In this document: in pieces, positions 1 to 62,303 of the stretch
How positions within the stretch are numbered: the stretch's first letter is position 1
Layout: each line of letters starts with the position of its first letter
Source: Candidatus Tectimicrobiota bacterium
GTDB taxonomy: Bacteria; Tectomicrobia; Entotheonellia; Entotheonellales; Entotheonellaceae
DNA: 64,000 nt
Assembly (NCBI GenBank): GCA_026005175.1
Contig: BPKO01000003.1
Coordinates: 124,001 to 188,000, forward strand
Direction of reading: 5' to 3'
Program-made: the position numbers and the translations under genes
The notes under the pieces: model-generated
The model's database searches: none
What the model saw: the letters and a program-made list of their open reading frames with translations, nothing else
Told to the model about the DNA's origin: nothing

Positions 1-139
1 CCAGTCCGACTTTCCGGTGCTCTGCGGGCTGCTGGGCATCGATCCGGTGGCGGCGCGCAAGGCGCAGTGGGATCGCCTGACGCCCCTGCAGCGGCAGGCC
101 CTCCTTGAGCGCTGGCCAGACCTGCGGCATCAGCTCTAG
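1..139 (+). CDS. C-terminal end of an unrecognised protein (partial)
   Basis: Reading from base 2 gives 45 residues ending ..RWPDLRHQL and a TAG stop at 137-139; the start lies outside the window. The tail is charged and has no membrane segment or motif that I recognise. It converges on mgtE with a gap of about 20 bases. Codon use looks like the neighbouring real genes, which together with the convergent layout is the only support for it being coding. Confidence 0.4.
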   Translation, partial: QSDFPVLCGLLGIDPVAARKAQWDRLTPLQRQALLERWPDLRHQL

Positions 140-161
140 CCAGCCGAAGGCGCCCGCCGCT

Positions 162-1541
162 TCAGGAGAGCAGGAAGAGCTTGGCAATGGTCAAGTAAAT
201 GCTCAAGGCGATAATGTCCATCGAGGTCGCCAGGAAGGGACCGGTGGCAATGGCGGGGTCGATGCGCAGGCGGGCAAAGAGCAAGGGCAAAAGGCCGCCG
301 ATGAGGGCGGCGATGGTGAGCGAGGCGCACACGGCGCTGCCGACGATAAAGCCAAAGAGGGGCATGCCGTGGCGCAAGTAAGCCACCGCCCCGATGGCCA
401 CGCCAAACATGAAGCCCAGCGACAGCCCGATGCGCAGGCCCTTAAAGAGTTCTTGGCCAAACTGCTTGGGGCTCAGCAGGCCGGTGGCCAGGCCGCGCAC
501 CGCCACGGCAAAAGACTGCGATGCGGTGTTGCCGCCCAGGCCGTTGATGAGCGGGAAGTAAGCCGCCAGAATCACCAGGCGCTGCAGCGTCTCGCGGTTG
601 GCATCGATGACGTAAGAGGCCAGAAAGGCCCCAAAGCAGCTGGCGGCCAGCCAGGGAAGGCGGTTGCGGATGGTGCGCCGCGAGGAGGCGTCGAGCACCT
701 CGTCGGGGTTGACGCCGGCCATGCGCAGCATGTCCTCGGTGGCCTCTTCGCTGATGACGTCGATGATGTCATCGACGGTGACGATGCCCACCAGCCGCCC
801 GCTGGCGTCCACCACCGGCAGGGCCAAAAAGTCGTACTGGGTAATGAGGCGGGCAATTTGCTCCTGGTCCTCGTCCACCCCGACGCGAATGACCTCGGTC
901 TCCATGAGATCCCGCAGGCGGGTTTCGGGCTCGGCCATCACCAGCTGGCGCAGCGACACCACGCCCACCAGACGGTGCTCGGCATCGACCACGTAGAGGT
1001 AAAACACCGTCTCGGCTTGCCCGGCCTGCCGCAGCCGCTGCAGCGCCTCGGCCACGGTGCAGGTTTCCTCCAAGGCGATGTAGTTGGTGGTCATCAAGCC
1101 GCCGGCCGTCTGCGGGTCGTAGGCCAGAAGCTTGCGGATCTCGGCGGCCAGGGGCTCGGGGAGCTTGGCCAGAATCTCGCTCAAGGTCTCTTTGGGCATG
1201 GCCCCCAGGATGTCGACGGCGTCATCGGGGGGCAGGAGGCGGATGAACTCTACCAGGCGCGTGGTCGACAGGTGCGGCAAGAGCTCGGCGCGGGTGCTGT
1301 CTTCAAGATACGCAAAAATCGACGTGGCCAGCTCCAAGTCCGGCAGGCGCTCGAGGAGCCGGCCTTGCTCTTGAGGCGTCAGCTGCGCCACGATCTCGGC
1401 GCACTCGCTGCTGTGGAACTTGCGCAGCAGGCGCGCCAGATGGCTGTAGGCGCCGCGCCGCAAGAGGCGCCGTGTGGCCTCAACGGGCAAGGGGCGAGAG
1501 GGCAACCCCTCGCGCGGCTGTGCCGGAGGTAAACTGCGCAT
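162..1541 (-). CDS. mgtE: MgtE magnesium channel/transporter
   Basis: About 459 residues with the standard MgtE order: a helical MgtE-N domain (residues ~20-120), a CBS pair (~130-250, with the typical VGIVTVDDIIDVI stretch) and a C-terminal membrane domain of about five helices (~280-459) that contains the family signature GLGGNTASQSFAVAVRGLA. It should be a homodimeric Mg2+-selective inner-membrane channel whose cytosolic N and CBS domains close the pore when Mg2+ is high. The ATG at 1541 is preceded by an AGGAG box ten bases upstream; an in-frame ATG at 1592 lacks one. It is transcribed divergently from the CBS-domain gene at 1704, itself from a family linked to Mg2+/Co2+ handling, so the two may act on the same ion. 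Confidence 0.93.
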   Translation of the reverse strand: MRSLPPAQPREGLPSRPLPVEATRRLLRRGAYSHLARLLRKFHSSECAEIVAQLTPQEQGRLLERLPDLELATSIFAYLEDSTRAELLPHLSTTRLVEFIRLLPPDDAVDILGAMPKETLSEILAKLPEPLAAEIRKLLAYDPQTAGGLMTTNYIALEETCTVAEALQRLRQAGQAETVFYLYVVDAEHRLVGVVSLRQLVMAEPETRLRDLMETEVIRVGVDEDQEQIARLITQYDFLALPVVDASGRLVGIVTVDDIIDVISEEATEDMLRMAGVNPDEVLDASSRRTIRNRLPWLAASCFGAFLASYVIDANRETLQRLVILAAYFPLINGLGGNTASQSFAVAVRGLATGLLSPKQFGQELFKGLRIGLSLGFMFGVAIGAVAYLRHGMPLFGFIVGSAVCASLTIAALIGGLLPLLFARLRIDPAIATGPFLATSMDIIALSIYLTIAKLFLLS

Positions 1542-1579
1542 GGCTGGGCGCTCCTGGAGACGACCACCGCAACAGAGAA

Positions 1580-1591
1580 AGTATACTAGCA
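1580..1591 (-). promoter_or_regulatory. extended -10 element in front of mgtE
   Basis: On the minus strand the sequence reads TGCTAGTATACT, an extended -10 (TGN plus TAGTAT, or alternatively TATACT), some 35-40 bases before the mgtE start. No good -35 box is visible, as expected for an extended -10 promoter. The same TGCTAGTATAC string occurs in front of the vapBC pair near 61.87 kb. Confidence 0.4.
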
Positions 1592-1647
1592 CATTACCGC
1601 GGTTGGCACACGGGAAATTCCTTCTCTGGCCGCCGCGGGCGGGTACC

Positions 1648-1674
1648 TTGTGGGCCTCGCCGCTGTGCTATAAT
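1648..1674 (+). promoter_or_regulatory. sigma-70 type promoter of the CNNM/CorC-like gene
   Basis: A perfect TATAAT at 1669-1674 lies 29 bases before the start codon. The best -35 match is TTGTGG at 1648-1653 with a slightly short 15-bp spacer, so the -10 box is the convincing part. Confidence 0.55.
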
Positions 1675-1703
1675 GAGGGCGGTCCTGGACGTCGCGAGGC
1701 TGC

Positions 1704-3033
1704 ATGGACGTTGCGCTAAAAATCTCGGCTATCCTGGCGTTCGTCGGCCTGAACGCCTTCTTCGTGGCCGCCGAGTTTGCCCTCGTCGGCGCCCGCACCA
1801 CGCGCTTGCACACCCTGGCTGCAGCGGGTGACCGCAAGGCACGCCTGGCGCTCAAAGCCATTGAGCGCCTCGACGACTACATTTCCAGCACCCAGCTGGG
1901 CATCACCCTGGCTTCCCTGGCCCTGGGCTGGATTGGCGAGGCGACGCTGGCCACGCTGTTTGCCCACCTCTTCCACGGCCTGCCGCCGCCGCTGTCGGCC
2001 TTGGCTTCGCACGCTGTGGCCGGAACCCTGGCCTTTGCCTGCATTACCTGCCTGCACATCATCCTTGGTGAACTGGCCCCCAAGTCGGTGGCTCTCCTGC
2101 ACCCAGAGCAAGTCAGCCGGCTCATCATCCACCCCCTGGTGCTGTTTACGTACGTCTTCTGGCCGGCCATCTGGCTGCTCAACGCCAGCGCCACCGCTTT
2201 CCTGCGCCTCTTTGCCATTCGCCCGCCGTCGCATGCCGAGCGCGTGCACGCGCCCGAAGAGCTGCTGCTGCTTGTCTCCGAAAGCCGCAAACACGGCCTC
2301 GTTGCCGACACCCCGGCGCAGATGATCGCGGGTGTGCTCGACCTCTCCCACACGCGGGTGCGCGAGCTGATGACGCCGCGCACGGAGATCGTGGCCGTAG
2401 AGCGGCACTGGTCCTTCGCCCAGATCGTAGAGACGGTGCGCCGCAGCGGCCACTCGCGCCTGCCGGTGTACGAGGAAGACCTCGACCACATCGTGGGCCT
2501 CCTGCTGGCCAAAGACCTGCTGGACTTTTGCACCGCCCCGGAGGCTTTTGACTTAGAGCAGGTCATGCGCGAGCCCTTCTTCGTCCCTGCCACCATGCCC
2601 GTTGACAAGCTGCTGCGCGAACTGCAGCGCCGCAGTGTCCACTTGGCCATCGTCGTCGACGAGTACGGCGGCACCCTGGGCCTCATCACCCTTGAGGACC
2701 TCCTGGAAGAAATCGTCGGCGATATTTTTGACGAGTTCGACCGCGCCAAAGCGCAAGAGGTGCAGGCCACCGCCGACGGGCGCCTGCTGGTGCCGGGCGA
2801 CCTGCCGGTGGCCGAGCTCAACGAGCGCTATCACCTGCACCTGCCCGAGGGCGGCTTACGTCACCGTGGCAGGGCTGGTGCTTTCGGCGCTAGGGCACAT
2901 CCCTACCGTAGGGGAGGAAGTGCAGGTCAACGGCATTACCCTGCGCGTGACGGCGATGGACGAGCTGCGCATCGACCGCCTGGAAATCATCGCCCCGCCC
3001 CCTGACGTCCCGGCGCCTTCTCCGGAGACCTGA
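1704..3033 (+). CDS. CNNM/CorC-family CBS-domain membrane protein (HlyC/CorC type), frameshifted
   Basis: The protein has a DUF21/CNNM transmembrane domain (residues 1 to ~190, opening with a hydrophobic helix), a CBS pair (~215-335, with LMTPRTEIVAV and the conserved DEYGGTLGLITLEDLLEEIVGDI region) and a C-terminal CorC_HlyC domain. The family is implicated in Mg2+/Co2+ efflux or homeostasis. The reading frame breaks after ..HLHLPEGG: one T too many at 2856-2857 moves the frame. Dropping it gives ..GGYVTVAGLVLSALG.. to a stop at 3033, a normal 442-residue protein with an intact CorC_HlyC domain. The total length is one base over a multiple of three, so a single inserted base explains it; a sequence error is more likely than real inactivation. 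Confidence 0.85.
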
Positions 3034-3046
3034 CGCGGCGCGCGTA

Positions 3047-3075
3047 TTGACATCCCTTGAGGGACGTGGTTTAAT
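3047..3075 (+). promoter_or_regulatory. strong sigma-70 promoter of the first ABC importer
   Basis: TTGACA at 3047-3052, a 17-bp spacer and TTTAAT at 3070-3075. The spacer contains the small inverted repeat TCCC-TTGA-GGGA, which could serve as an operator. The region around the -10 (GTGGTTTAAT) closely matches that of the second importer (GTGGTGTAAT). Confidence 0.75.
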
Positions 3076-3138
3076 CCCCATGACTTCCCACGGCGCGACC
3101 CAACTACCCCTGGTACGCTCAGGAGGGAGGGAACCACG

Positions 3139-4479
3139 ATGAGAACGGGGAAGGTTTTGTCCCGGCGGGAGTTTCTCAAGACGGCCAGCACCGTGGCCCT
3201 GGCAACCGGCGTGGGGGCCAGCATCATCGTCCCTGGACGCGCCAACGCTCAGCGCAAGAAGCTGCGCATCTTGCAGTGGAACCACTTCGTGCCCGGCTTT
3301 GACGAGTGGTTCAACAACACCTACGTGAAGGAGTGGGGGGAAAAGAACGACACCGAAGTCATCGTGGACAACATCGGCCTGGCAGGGCTCAACAGCCGCG
3401 CCGCCGCGGAAGTCTCAGCGCAGAAAGGCCACGACCTCTTCATGTTCCTGTGGCCGCCGCCGGTGCACGAAGACCAGGTCATCGACCACCGCGAAATCTA
3501 CGAAGAGTGCGAGCGGCGCTACGGCAAGGCGATCGACTTGGCCATCAAGAGCACCTACAACCCGAAGACAAAGAAGTTCTACGGCTTCTCCGATAGCTAC
3601 GTGCCCGACCCCATCAACTACCGCAAAGACCTCTGGGACGACGTGGGGATGTTCCCCGACACCTGGGACGACATCCGCGTGGGGGGCCGCAAGATCAAGC
3701 AGAAGCACGGCAACCCGGTGGGCATCGGCCTGGCCTCGGAAATCGACACCAACATGGCCATGCGCGCCATCATGTACTCGTTTGGCTCCTCGGTGCAGGA
3801 CGAAGAAGGCAACCCCGTCCTCAAGTCCAAGGCCACCCTGGAAGCCATCAAGTTCGTCAAAGCCCTCTACGAAGAGACGATGACCCCGGAGGTCTTTACC
3901 TGGGACGCCTCTTCCAACAACCGCTTCATGCTCTCCGGCAAAGGCTCGCTGGCCCTCAACGCCATCTCCATCACCCGCACCGGCGAAAAGCAGAAAAACC
4001 CCATTGCGGACAAGATCTGGCTGGCCAAAGCGGCCAAAGGGCCGGTACGGCGCATCGGCCTCGAGCACGTCATGGACGTCTACGTCATCTGGAAGTTCGC
4101 CGAGAACATCGAAGGTGCCAAGCAGTTCCTCGTCGACTACATCGGCAACTTCCGCCAGGCCTTCCTGGCCAGTGAGTTCTACAACTTCCCGTGCTTCCCG
4201 CAGACGGTCCCCGACCTCAAGCAGCTGATTGCTTACGATCCCAAGGCCAACCCGCCCGACAAGTACAAAGTGCTCGAGGACGTGCTCGACTGGGCGACCA
4301 ACGTCGGCTACCCCGGCTACGCCAACGCCGCCATTGACGAGGTGTTCAGCACCTGGGTGATTTCCACCATGTTCGCCCAGGCGGCCTCGGGCCGGCTGTC
4401 GCCGGAAGAGGCGATGAACCAGGCCGACGCCGAAGTACGGCGCATTTTTGCCAAGTGGAAAGAGAAAGGGAAAGTGTAG
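3139..4479 (+). CDS. Tat-exported extracellular solute-binding protein, family 1 (sugar/glycerol-phosphate type)
   Basis: The 446-residue protein opens with a twin-arginine signal (SRREFLKTA followed by a hydrophobic stretch and an ANA cleavage site near residue 35). The mature part has the length and overall look of the MalE/UgpB family of periplasmic binding proteins. It should capture a carbohydrate or related solute and hand it to the permeases encoded at 5565 and 6542. The start is fixed by a strong AGGAGGGAGG Shine-Dalgarno sequence. It is the first gene of a four-gene importer (binding protein, ATPase, two permeases) transcribed from the TTGACA/TTTAAT promoter and is followed by a long hairpin that may keep its mRNA in excess. 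The solute cannot be told from the sequence. Confidence 0.88.
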   Translation: MRTGKVLSRREFLKTASTVALATGVGASIIVPGRANAQRKKLRILQWNHFVPGFDEWFNNTYVKEWGEKNDTEVIVDNIGLAGLNSRAAAEVSAQKGHDLFMFLWPPPVHEDQVIDHREIYEECERRYGKAIDLAIKSTYNPKTKKFYGFSDSYVPDPINYRKDLWDDVGMFPDTWDDIRVGGRKIKQKHGNPVGIGLASEIDTNMAMRAIMYSFGSSVQDEEGNPVLKSKATLEAIKFVKALYEETMTPEVFTWDASSNNRFMLSGKGSLALNAISITRTGEKQKNPIADKIWLAKAAKGPVRRIGLEHVMDVYVIWKFAENIEGAKQFLVDYIGNFRQAFLASEFYNFPCFPQTVPDLKQLIAYDPKANPPDKYKVLEDVLDWATNVGYPGYANAAIDEVFSTWVISTMFAQAASGRLSPEEAMNQADAEVRRIFAKWKEKGKV

Positions 4480-58783: not shown

Positions 58784-59011
58784 GTCTCGCCGGTTACCAG
58801 AGGGGTCGCCCGGGAAGGCGAGAAAGCGCTCCTCCGCCATGCGGGCGGCTGCCGTGGGCCTTGGCGCCGTCACAGGACGCTTGTCGCTGGCTTTGCGCCT
58901 GGCGCGAAGAAGCAACGCGCAGCACGACGCCTATATACAGCGGCGGTTGTGAGGACGCGCAGCCTGCGATGGCAAGCCCTCCTGCCCATTCACACTTCAA
59001 GACCTGACCCC
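58784..59011 (+). repeat. left copy of the ~228-bp island-flanking direct repeat
   Basis: Starts GTCTCGCCGGTTACCAGAGG and ends TCAAGACCTGACCCC. The second copy (62074-62303) has the same orientation and is nearly identical; the main differences are a short stretch around 58817-58840 and single bases. It contains no intact gene. The sharp right end suggests a mobile-element boundary; a non-autonomous element is the likeliest identity but no inverted ends are visible. Confidence 0.85.
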
Positions 59012-59026
59012 ACATCCCTTGCGCTG

Positions 59027-59055
59027 TTGACAAAAGGCACACAATGCGATAGATT
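59027..59055 (+). promoter_or_regulatory. promoter of the BrnT-type toxin/antitoxin operon, leaderless
   Basis: TTGACA at 59027-59032, 17-bp spacer, TAGATT at 59050-59055. The start codon begins seven bases after the -10, where transcription should start. Confidence 0.7.
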
Positions 59056-59061
59056 CACAAC

Positions 59062-59346
59062 ATGAAATACTTTTCATGGAACAACGAGAAGAACCAAAAA
59101 CTCAAGCAAGAACAAGGAGTCTCTTTTGAAGAAGTTCTCTTCCATATTGTGTGGGGAGACTTACTGGATGTTCTGGAGCACCCGAATCAGGAACGATATC
59201 CAGGTCAGCGCATCTTCGTCGTGAACATCGATGACTATGCATACCTTGTTCCGTTTGTGGAGAGTGAATCCGAAGTGTTTTTGAAGACTGTCATCCCAAG
59301 CCGCAAGGCGACAGATATCTATCTAAGATGGGGGAGAAAAAGATGA
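59062..59346 (+). CDS. BrnT-family toxin
   Basis: 94 residues, MKYFSWNNEKNQKLKQEQGVSF..., ending RKATDIYLRWGRKR: a BrnT-type RelE-fold ribonuclease (WNNEKN, QGVSFEEV, HPNQERYPGQRI, KTVIPSRKATDIY). BrnT toxins cut mRNA and are neutralised by the downstream partner. AT content is much higher than in the surrounding genes, suggesting transfer. No Shine-Dalgarno is present; the ATG coincides with the predicted transcript start. It overlaps the antitoxin gene by ATGA. Confidence 0.85.
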   Translation: MKYFSWNNEKNQKLKQEQGVSFEEVLFHIVWGDLLDVLEHPNQERYPGQRIFVVNIDDYAYLVPFVESESEVFLKTVIPSRKATDIYLRWGRKR

Positions 59347-59618
59347 GAAAGCTTGATAAGGAGGAGAAAGAGCTTCTCGAATCCTTTGAACGAGAAGAAT
59401 GGCAATCGGTTTCAGGAAAGGCAGCCGAGTTTCAACGTTATCGTGAATATGCTCGTGCCACTTTTAAGAAGGATCGTCGGATAAACATCAGGATCTCAAG
59501 AAAGGATCTGGAAGCCCTTCAAAAACGGGCGTTGGAGGAAGGTATTCCTTACCAGACACTGATTGCAAGCATTTTGCATAAATACGCAAATGGTCGTCTT
59601 GTAGAAAGGGAGGCCTAA
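59343..59618 (+). CDS. BrnA/CopG-type antitoxin
   Basis: 91 residues. The N-terminus is charged and helical (KEEKELLESFEREEW); the C-terminus KKDRRINIRISRKDLEALQKRALEEGIPYQTLIASILHKYANGRL is a ribbon-helix-helix DNA-binding domain of the CopG/BrnA sort. It should bind the toxin and repress the operon. GGGGAG six bases before the ATG; ATGA overlap with the toxin gene. Confidence 0.85.
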   Translation: MRKLDKEEKELLESFEREEWQSVSGKAAEFQRYREYARATFKKDRRINIRISRKDLEALQKRALEEGIPYQTLIASILHKYANGRLVEREA

Positions 59619-59771
59619 CGCCCCGGCCGCCGCGGACGGCATTCCGCCGCTGGCGAGGGTCAAGCACGGTTTTGGGGTCCAAAGCCCTCTCTTCGGAGAG
59701 ACGGAAGCTCATAAACATCAACGAGTTTCTCAGTTAAGCCCTGGCCCATATGGCCCATAGTACGGCTCAGA

Positions 59772-60349
59772 CGGTTCACCCCCACGTGCGTGGGGACAAT
59801 AGCGGATCGTCATTTTCACCATAATCATGCGTCGGGTCACCCCCACGTGCGTGGGGACAATGTGCACATCACCGGCTCTCGCGGCTTGACAGGCGGTTCA
59901 CCCCCACGTGCGTGGGGACAATTGACGAAGGCATCCAGGCGCCAGGGAACGGTTCGGTTCACCCCCACGTGCGTGGGGACAATTGCCCCACGAACCCCCA
60001 GCTCCCCGTCCCGTCCGGTTCACCCCCACGTGCGTGGGGACAATCCCAGACGAGCTCGCCCTCGTACCGCACGGGCCGGTTCACCCCCACGTGCGTGGGG
60101 ACAATCGAGTACCGGGAAGCGGCCAAGCGCCTCGGAACGGTTCACCCCCACGTGCGTAGGGACAATCTTGTCGATGGCCTTGGCCAGGCTGATTCCTTCG
60201 GTTCACCCCCACGTGCGTGGGGACAATCCCGAGGGCTGGGGCTGCGTCTTTGACCCAGACGGTTCACCCCCACGTGCGTGGGGACAATGTTGGTGCTACC
60301 GGCGCGCTGAGGTCCTCCATCGGTTCACCCCCACGTGCGTGGGGACAAT
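59772..60349 (-). CRISPR. CRISPR array, type I-E-like, 10 repeats and 9 spacers
   Basis: Ten 29-bp repeats beginning CGGTTCACCCCCACGTG and ending CGTGGGGACAAT on the plus strand, at an invariant period of 61 bp, so all nine spacers are 32 bp. The stem CCCCACG/CGTGGGG is the I-E hairpin. Read on the minus strand the repeat ends GTGAACCG, the I-E-type 5' crRNA handle, so crRNA should be transcribed right to left. Repeat 2 (59833) has G for T and repeat 7 (60138) A for G; the decayed repeat at the left fits the leader-distal end. No leader is visible at the right. Confidence 0.97.
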
Positions 60350-60699
60350 TTGCTCCCCAGCTGATGGGCGTTGGCCGAGAGCTTCAGGCCTACTTGCAGG
60401 AGCCGCTGCGGCGCCCACACCCGGTCTTGGGCCTGAAACGCAGGGGACGCCTTGCCCACGTCGTGAAGTCCGGCCCATAGCGCTATCCAGATAGCCGCTG
60501 CTTCTTGGGATAGACAAAGACTACTCGCAATCCAAGCCCGGCTGGCTTGGTGGAGCGCTCCTTGCCGTAACGCAAGGGCTACCGCAGCCACATCCAGGAG
60601 ATGACACGGAAGCGGGTGATACCCTCTAGCTCCCGTAGCAAGTTTGGCCCAGCAAGCCAGAAGGCTCTGGAGTGAGTGCGCTTGTTGCTCGGACGCCAT
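60325..60699 (-). pseudogene. cas3: 5' remnant of cas3 (HD nuclease domain) running into the CRISPR array
   Basis: The frame starts MASEQQAHSLQSLLACWAKL (GGGGGAAGG upstream) and has Cas3 HD-domain marks: YHPLPCHLLDVAAVALAL and WAGLHDVGKASPAFQAQD. About 105 residues in, the reading frame enters the first array repeat and stops there. The helicase and all later cas genes (cas8e, cse2, cas7, cas5, cas6e, cas1, cas2) are absent. The orientation (cas3 then array, minus strand) is that of an intact I-E locus, so a deletion from within cas3 to within the array is the likely cause. The last ~32 bases before the repeat could instead be a residual spacer. Confidence 0.82.
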
Positions 60700-60705
60700 C
60701 CGCAC

Positions 60706-61182
60706 CTTCCCCCGTTAGGCGAGAGTTCCGTTGTTCCTCTGCGAGCCCCTCCTTGCCATGCAGCACCCAGCTAACTTGCAGAGTGCGTGTTAAAGCATAG
60801 GCATCTCTTGACAGGGAATCGCCCTGCCTGCTGAAGGTCATGGAACCGAGATGGGTCCGATTTTACTCTCGGTATAGCCGGTGTACAAGCCTATGCCCCG
60901 GCTATTGGGCGGTGTAACTCCGGTGCCTGGGAGGATGTGGCTGAGCACGAACGGGTCAGAGGCCCTTTGGCCGCTCAGGGCGGCGGTCCCACCAGCTTTG
61001 GCCCGCTGCCTGTGGGCGGAACTTGTCGTCGATAGGGTAAGGTCTGGCCTTCTCTGACGGCGTCGCCTGTTCCGCAAAAGGAGAGGGGCAGCCCTGACAG
61101 CTGGCGGGGACACGCTGCCGTGTGGCAGGGTGCGTCTTGGAGGGTCGTCCTGCGGCACATGGCCATGCGTGTGAAATTCTGC
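60706..61182. other. 477 bases without a supportable gene, upstream of cas3 remnant and downstream of vapC
   Basis: Frames exist but have shadow-like composition and no ribosome sites. The cas3 promoter lies here. The GC-rich stretch 60950-61120 resembles neither a tRNA nor a known RNA that I can recognise. Confidence 0.5.
60860..60888 (-). promoter_or_regulatory. predicted promoter of the cas3 remnant
   Basis: On the minus strand TTGTAC (60883-60888), 17-bp spacer, TAAAAT (60860-60865), giving a leader of about 150 bases to cas3. Because cas3 and the array are now joined, this promoter could also transcribe the array. Confidence 0.5.
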
Positions 61183-61599
61183 TTATGGGAGCAGCTCAAA
61201 GTAGGGGCAATGCCGTGGACGGATCAGAGAGAAGTGGCGGCGGTCAATCGTCAGGAGACGGTGAATCTTCCGACGCTCTGCGATGGCAACGATCGTGGCA
61301 TCCACGAAACCGATATTGGCATCAGCGTATTGCTCGAGGAGGGTCAAGGCGCGTCGGAGGTCACTGTTGGTGAGATTCTCAACCTGCATTTCGCCTCGCA
61401 AGAGGGAACGGAGAAGCTGTCTTTCTGCGCCTTGTCCAATATAAGTGTTGAGAAGGTAACATGCCTCAGGCAGAACAGTGACAGGCACGATCAACGTATC
61501 TGTCTGAGCTTGGAGGTAAGCGTTGACCCGGTCGTGCCAGGCGTCATCGCGATCGGCCATGGCGTAGAGGACGCCTGTATCTACGACAACCAGGGGCAT
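61183..61599 (-). CDS. VapC-type PIN-domain toxin
   Basis: 138 residues of the PIN ribonuclease fold with its acidic residues: Asp in VVVDTGVLYAMADRDD, Glu in TVLPEACYLL and Asp in NIGFVDATIVAIAER. Starts at the antitoxin stop (TGATG overlap). It cleaves RNA, in known cases tRNA or rRNA. Confidence 0.88.
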   Translation of the reverse strand: MPLVVVDTGVLYAMADRDDAWHDRVNAYLQAQTDTLIVPVTVLPEACYLLNTYIGQGAERQLLRSLLRGEMQVENLTNSDLRRALTLLEQYADANIGFVDATIVAIAERRKIHRLLTIDRRHFSLIRPRHCPYFELLP

Positions 61600-61847
61600 C
61601 AGTTCGCATCCTTCTCCCTGGTGGGGGCTTCCCGCCACAGCAGCTCTTCACATCTTTCCGCGATATCGCGTCGTCCGCTACGACCGATGCCCACAATAGA
61701 GGGAACCCTTTTCGCCCTTTGGTGTTCAGCGATAAACTTGTCTAGAGCTTGCCGAATGACCTCGGCCATGCTGAGGCCCTCTCTGCGGGCAATCTCCCGG
61801 AGTGAGAGCAGCGTCTCTTCATCGGCAAAAATCGTCGTGCGTTTCAT
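61599..61847 (-). CDS. VapB-type ribbon-helix-helix antitoxin
   Basis: 82 residues: MKRTTIFADEETLLSLREIARREGLSMAEVIRQALDKF is a CopG/ribbon-helix-helix DNA-binding module, followed by a toxin-binding tail with an AERCEELLW helix. AAGGAGG precedes the ATG. A 26-bp palindrome over the promoter is the likely autoregulatory operator. Confidence 0.88.
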   Translation of the reverse strand: MKRTTIFADEETLLSLREIARREGLSMAEVIRQALDKFIAEHQRAKRVPSIVGIGRSGRRDIAERCEELLWREAPTREKDAN

Positions 61848-61866
61848 CGCCCTCCTCCTTTCGGGG

Positions 61867-62073: not shown

Positions 62074-62303
62074 GTCTCGCCGGTTACCAGAGGGGTCGCC
62101 CGGGAAGGCAAGAAAACGCCCGTCGTCCGCCATGCGGGCGGCCGCCGTGGGCCTTGGCGCCTCACAGGACGCTTGTCGCTGGCTTTGCGCCTGGCGCGAA
62201 GAAGCAACGCGCAGCACGACGCCTATATACAGCGGCGGTTGTGAGGACGCGCAGCCTGCGATGGCAAGCCCTCCTGCCCATTCACATTTCAAGACCTGAC
62301 CCC
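62074..62303 (+). repeat. right copy of the ~228-bp island-flanking direct repeat
   Basis: Starts at GTCTCGCCGGTTACC and ends TCAAGACCTGACCCC like the left copy, in the same orientation. It overlaps the last 15 bases of the convergent ASST-type gene and provides its stop codon. With the vapBC operator it fills the 441-base stretch between vapB and that gene, which holds no other supportable gene. Confidence 0.85.

Follow-up and report, generated by a model that had tools for sequence, protein, structure and literature searches.

A type I-E CRISPR array beside the start of cas3 as the probable remnant of a deleted CRISPR-Cas locus

In the 64,000-nucleotide stretch of DNA analysed here (the window), from Candidatus Tectimicrobiota bacterium, a member of an uncultured lineage, a CRISPR array lies beside the first tenth of a cas3 gene. 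The two stand in the order and orientation of a type I-E locus, and everything expected between them is missing from both the window and the assembly. We consider it highly probable that one deletion of ~8-9 kb reduced a type I-E CRISPR-Cas system to this remnant, which is now without interference, processing or acquisition and is most likely inert. The initial annotation's proposal of a deletion that begins inside cas3 and reaches the array is thus well supported. Such a deletion would have started at about codon 108-116 of cas3 and ended either at the array's leader end or within the first spacers (~8.7 kb when measured on an intact locus, L039), removing the rest of cas3, Cascade, cas1, cas2 and the leader. 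We infer the single event, its size and the loss of function from the parts that remain and from those that are absent from the assembled genome.

The array occupies 59772..60349 on the minus strand and comprises ten 29-nt I-E-type repeats, running from 59772-59800 to 60321-60349 at an exact 61-nt period, and nine 32-nt spacers. The ten-repeat, minus-strand I-E-type array described earlier is therefore present and perfectly periodic; the span then given for it, 59772-60705, is correct for its start, but the array proper ends at 60349 and the remainder up to 60705 covers the cas3 stub. Eight of the ten copies share the minus-strand sequence ATTGTCCCCACGCACGTGGGGGTGAACCG, and each of the remaining two departs from it at a single base, one by C to T at position 9 and the other by A to C in the handle. 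The 29-nt repeats with an I-E core, the 3' handle of the ...GTGAACCG type and the 32-nt spacers are all those of type I-E arrays. Repeat core and orientation match the arrays downstream of cas2e in two reference loci, L039 and L083, and because cas2e precedes the repeat in both, on the same strand in L039, this comparison places the array's leader end at 60349, adjoining the cas3 stub. A search of 59000-61500 against Rfam returned no matches.

The stub, at 60375..60699 on the minus strand, represents the beginning of a type I-E cas3 gene, from the start codon to about codon 108, with the HLLD and HDVGK motifs within it. It begins with an ATG at 60699 preceded by the ribosome-binding site GGGGGAAGG, lies directly upstream of the array on that strand, and stays open until it enters the first repeat; there the read-through (60325..60349) meets a stop codon, as had been proposed. 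The frame 60699..60325 matched the Pfam profile Cas3_HD (E 3.5e-22, 79.9 bits against a cut-off of 23.1), the PADLOC profile Cas3e (E 2.9e-18, 63.7 bits) and the PDB Cas3 structures 4q2c, 3sk9, 6c66 and 4qqw (E 3e-16 to 3e-12). Together, these matches exclude chance similarity; the HD-domain profile match above the curated cut-off assigns the stub to the Cas3 family, and the earlier reading of the frame 60325-60699 as a Cas3 start with HLLD and LHDVGK is borne out by the profile searches and the structural matches alike. The closest cas3 relative found among genome contigs shares 47% identity with the stub, with none closer in the 386 sampled genomes, and no close relative was found in viral contigs.

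Alignment of the stub with the intact Cas3 proteins of L014, L039, L040 and L080-L082 is good as far as FQAQ and plausible as far as GLKLS (~codon 108 from the ATG); the PADLOC alignment extends to codon 116 of a GTG-started frame, with its surest conserved column near codon 108. Only these first ~108-116 codons remain of a protein that in complete form joins an HD nuclease to a helicase. Of the HD-domain motifs, GGHHG and ADW are absent and PHG is doubtful in the alignments; the entire helicase is missing as well, and nuclease activity is therefore unexpected. It is accordingly extremely improbable that a truncated HD protein is made and functions, for example as a small nuclease: its start codon and ribosome-binding site are intact and its frame is open into the first repeat, but the later motifs are missing, and a base-composition estimate gives a ~6% chance of an open frame this long at 66% GC, which is no strong sign of selection.

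Between the sure cas3 homology and the first repeat lie 26 nt (60350..60375, minus strand) that may be cas3, the end of a leader or a partial spacer. They underlie the C-terminal residues of the stub, ANAHQLGSK, for which the alignments leave the same three origins and in which the H possibly corresponds to the PHG motif. The direct fusion of array to cas3 claimed earlier stands in that cas3 homology is convincing to ~60375, but the directness of the join is uncertain by up to 26 nt. On the other side of the junction, no base is missing from the start of the first repeat. Cas1-Cas2 normally attacks the leader end of the first repeat, which raises the idea that the adaptation machinery itself made the deletion by joining a broken chromosomal end in cas3 to that point. 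The completeness of the first repeat is consistent with this, and the polarity fits, since the 3' end of the cas3 sense strand meets the repeat at its 5' end. Against it, up to 26 nt between cas3 and repeat may not be cas3, and chance alone would put a junction so near the repeat start in roughly one third to one half of random cases; we regard this origin of the deletion as very unlikely.

The arrangement from which the remnant would derive is seen in Thermalbibacter longus (L039), where cas3-cas8e-cas11e-cas7e-cas5e-cas6e-cas1e-cas2e-array stand in this order on a single strand, in agreement with the collinear order that had been claimed for intact I-E loci. Its cas3 and array have the same order and direction as those of the window, its Cas3 is 47% identical to the stub over 81 residues, and its repeat, ATCATCCCCACGCACGTGGGGGTGAACCG, located past cas2e on the same strand, is near-identical to the window's, differing only near the 5' end. 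In contrast to the window, L039 possesses a leader and the full set of eight cas genes, and the points that correspond to the window's junction lie ~8.7 kb apart. A repeat identical to the window's occurs in L083, 18 nt past the cas2e stop codon; the L083 leader sequence is absent ahead of the window's first repeat. This viral contig (IMG/VR IMGVR_UViG_3300008002_000368, 1-3912) carries cas1e, cas2e and one exact copy of the window repeat, followed by phage head genes including that of a major head protein; either the contig is chimeric or it represents an I-E adaptation locus with a solitary repeat next to a cluster of virion genes. The relatives found were all too distant to show an intact locus at the window's own site. 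A comparison with empty sites was uninformative as to synteny, since the right-hand neighbour gene has no more than distant homologues in the relatives G001 and G003, one of them on a 3.8-kb contig.

The genes that the deletion would have taken were sought in the window, its surroundings and the rest of the assembly. By tblastn with the L039 proteins, no I-E cas gene besides the stub, and no remains of one, were detected around the array, confirming that the window has no leader and no other cas genes; none of the Cascade genes cas8e, cas11e, cas7e, cas5e and cas6e lies near it, and no cas1e and cas2e with a leader stand beside the first repeat. Within the assembled genome, a metagenome-like bin that is 77.5% complete and 3.55% contaminated, we found no Cas6e, no second I-E cas3 or further part of one, no other copy of the array repeat with up to 3 mismatches allowed, and no Cas7e, in a search that detected its positive controls in 2 of 14 control genomes. 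Three cas1 loci are present, none typed as Cas1e. The loss of the other cas genes from the genome thus holds for the assembled 77.5%, in which the array has no cognate cas genes, whereas an orphan array in the strict sense requires their absence genome-wide; the case for such absence is strong but not final at this completeness.

The three cas1 loci belong to three other CRISPR loci, each of another type and with repeats unrelated to the window's: a type I-B locus (L057) and a type III-A locus (L058), both on contig C4, and, on contig C9 (L059), a type I locus whose proteins resemble Cas8b and Cas6d. The type III-A cas1 is interrupted by an IS66-family transposase gene (C4:265327-267713), and in the type I-B locus (C4:9713-12892) cas7b and cas8b are seemingly split between frames, through decay or sequencing indels.

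The same search results bear on whether the organism's locus is intact and an assembler, or a mixture of strains, joined cas3 to the array. The bin's metagenome-like character, completeness and contamination would allow this, as would a pair of ~230-bp direct repeats flanking the segment and the split type I-B genes, which may reflect sequencing indels. However, the assembly comprises only 14 contigs for 4 Mb, the junction lies within a 411-kb contig, its cas3 side is non-repetitive, and neither the missing genes searched for nor further repeat copies occur on any other contig. Misassembly is therefore less likely than a true deletion, and we consider it improbable overall.

The direct repeats lie at 58784..59011 and 62074..62303 on the plus strand, are 96% identical and occur only as these two copies in the genome. 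They enclose a 3-kb segment that holds the array, the stub and two toxin-antitoxin pairs, and since they flank this whole segment rather than the deletion junction, they do not explain the deletion. The repeat ends in TTCAAGACCTGACCCC, with one base differing just ahead of TTCAAGACCTGACCCC. The toxin-antitoxin pairs stand on either side of the remnant (59062-59618 and 61183-61850); one consists of a BrnT-like protein, whose match is below the Pfam cut-off, and a CopG-type antitoxin, and the pair on the other side of a PIN-domain protein and an RHH protein. The direct repeats suggest that the 3-kb segment, with a toxin-antitoxin pair on each side of the remnant, may have been mobile or may have been added by recombination.

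A remnant left by such a deletion would be unable to interfere, having no helicase, an incomplete HD domain and no Cascade; it would be unable to process the array transcript without Cas6e or to acquire spacers without Cas1e-Cas2e and a leader. The array may still be weakly transcribed from upstream, yet most likely is inert and slowly decaying. Set against a dead remnant is the scarcity of decay, with eight of ten repeats identical and the stub frame open throughout, which would suit either a loss not long ago or a use that the locus still has. Upstream, the sole promoter-like site, at 60860..60887 on the minus strand, is a weak sigma-70-like match (9 of 12 positions, with 0.3 such sites expected by chance) and is possibly the old cas3 promoter. 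The suggestion that this promoter now drives the array is tenable in that transcription through the stub is possible, but the sole site is weak. No terminator was found between stub and array, which are co-directional, and this, together with the well-preserved repeats, would suit a retained function in which crRNAs serve Cas proteins in trans or act in regulation. The assembly, however, encodes no I-E Cas6 or Cas7, the repeats of the other loci are unrelated in sequence, the promoter match is weak, and the spacers have no match beyond chance in their own genome or in the phage collection. We consider such a function very unlikely. Since neither Cas6e to cut a transcript nor Cascade to use it was found, immunity is unexpected; the search for Cas6e or Cascade acting in trans in the rest of the genome, called for in the initial annotation, recovered no cas6e, Cascade gene or cas1e, and its proposal that the locus still yields crRNA or a truncated HD protein is unsupported, given also the unrelated repeats and the missing later HD motifs.

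No target of the spacers emerged from their own genome, from the phage collection or, for the two of nine spacers scanned there, from viral contigs. A phage origin was rejected: the phage collection gave a single 22-nt chance match, and 20-nt stretches of those two spacers had no match in the viral contigs. Spacer 3 shares 22 nt with genome L024, a candidate target that we rejected because positions 1-7 differ and the stretch resembles common high-GC coding sequence. Self-targeting was likewise rejected as the cause of the deletion: the concatenated spacers compared with their own genome gave only the array itself and matches of ~15-27 nt (E at least 0.6), although a triggering spacer could have gone with the leader-proximal part of the array. 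None of the spacers convincingly matched the cas genes of the compared loci.

We conclude that the locus is a well-preserved and probably non-working remnant, and no new kind of system. Orphan CRISPR arrays without cas genes, and degenerate loci, are well documented (PMC8616872, which where it treats such arrays cites Shmakov et al. 2020). The window resembles them in that an array of known type stands in an assembly lacking its cognate cas genes and is read as degeneration; it differs in retaining a piece of cas3 at the leader end, which reveals the route of loss. Truncated cas3 genes are documented in E. coli I-E operons (PMC6301781), where cas3 is likewise shortened in a degenerate I-E locus, but there the rest of the operon is kept, whereas the window keeps only the start of cas3. 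The orphan I-F arrays of E. coli, which carry anti-cas spacers (Almendros et al. 2016, as cited in passages of PMC8616872 and PMC12814883), also lack cas genes of their own, but no window spacer shows a convincing match to the cas genes of the compared loci. Types I-B, I-E and I-F rarely co-occur in a survey (PMC12814883), a passage of which cites the proposal that incompatible systems get deleted; as the genome keeps a type I-B locus among its three others, the case fits loss under incompatibility or redundancy. Our understanding of CRISPR systems is unchanged by this remnant, which represents a known kind of degeneration and is unusual only for how clearly the deletion can be read: a clean snapshot of type I-E loss, in which one deletion would have taken the effector and adaptation genes while the memory array stayed.
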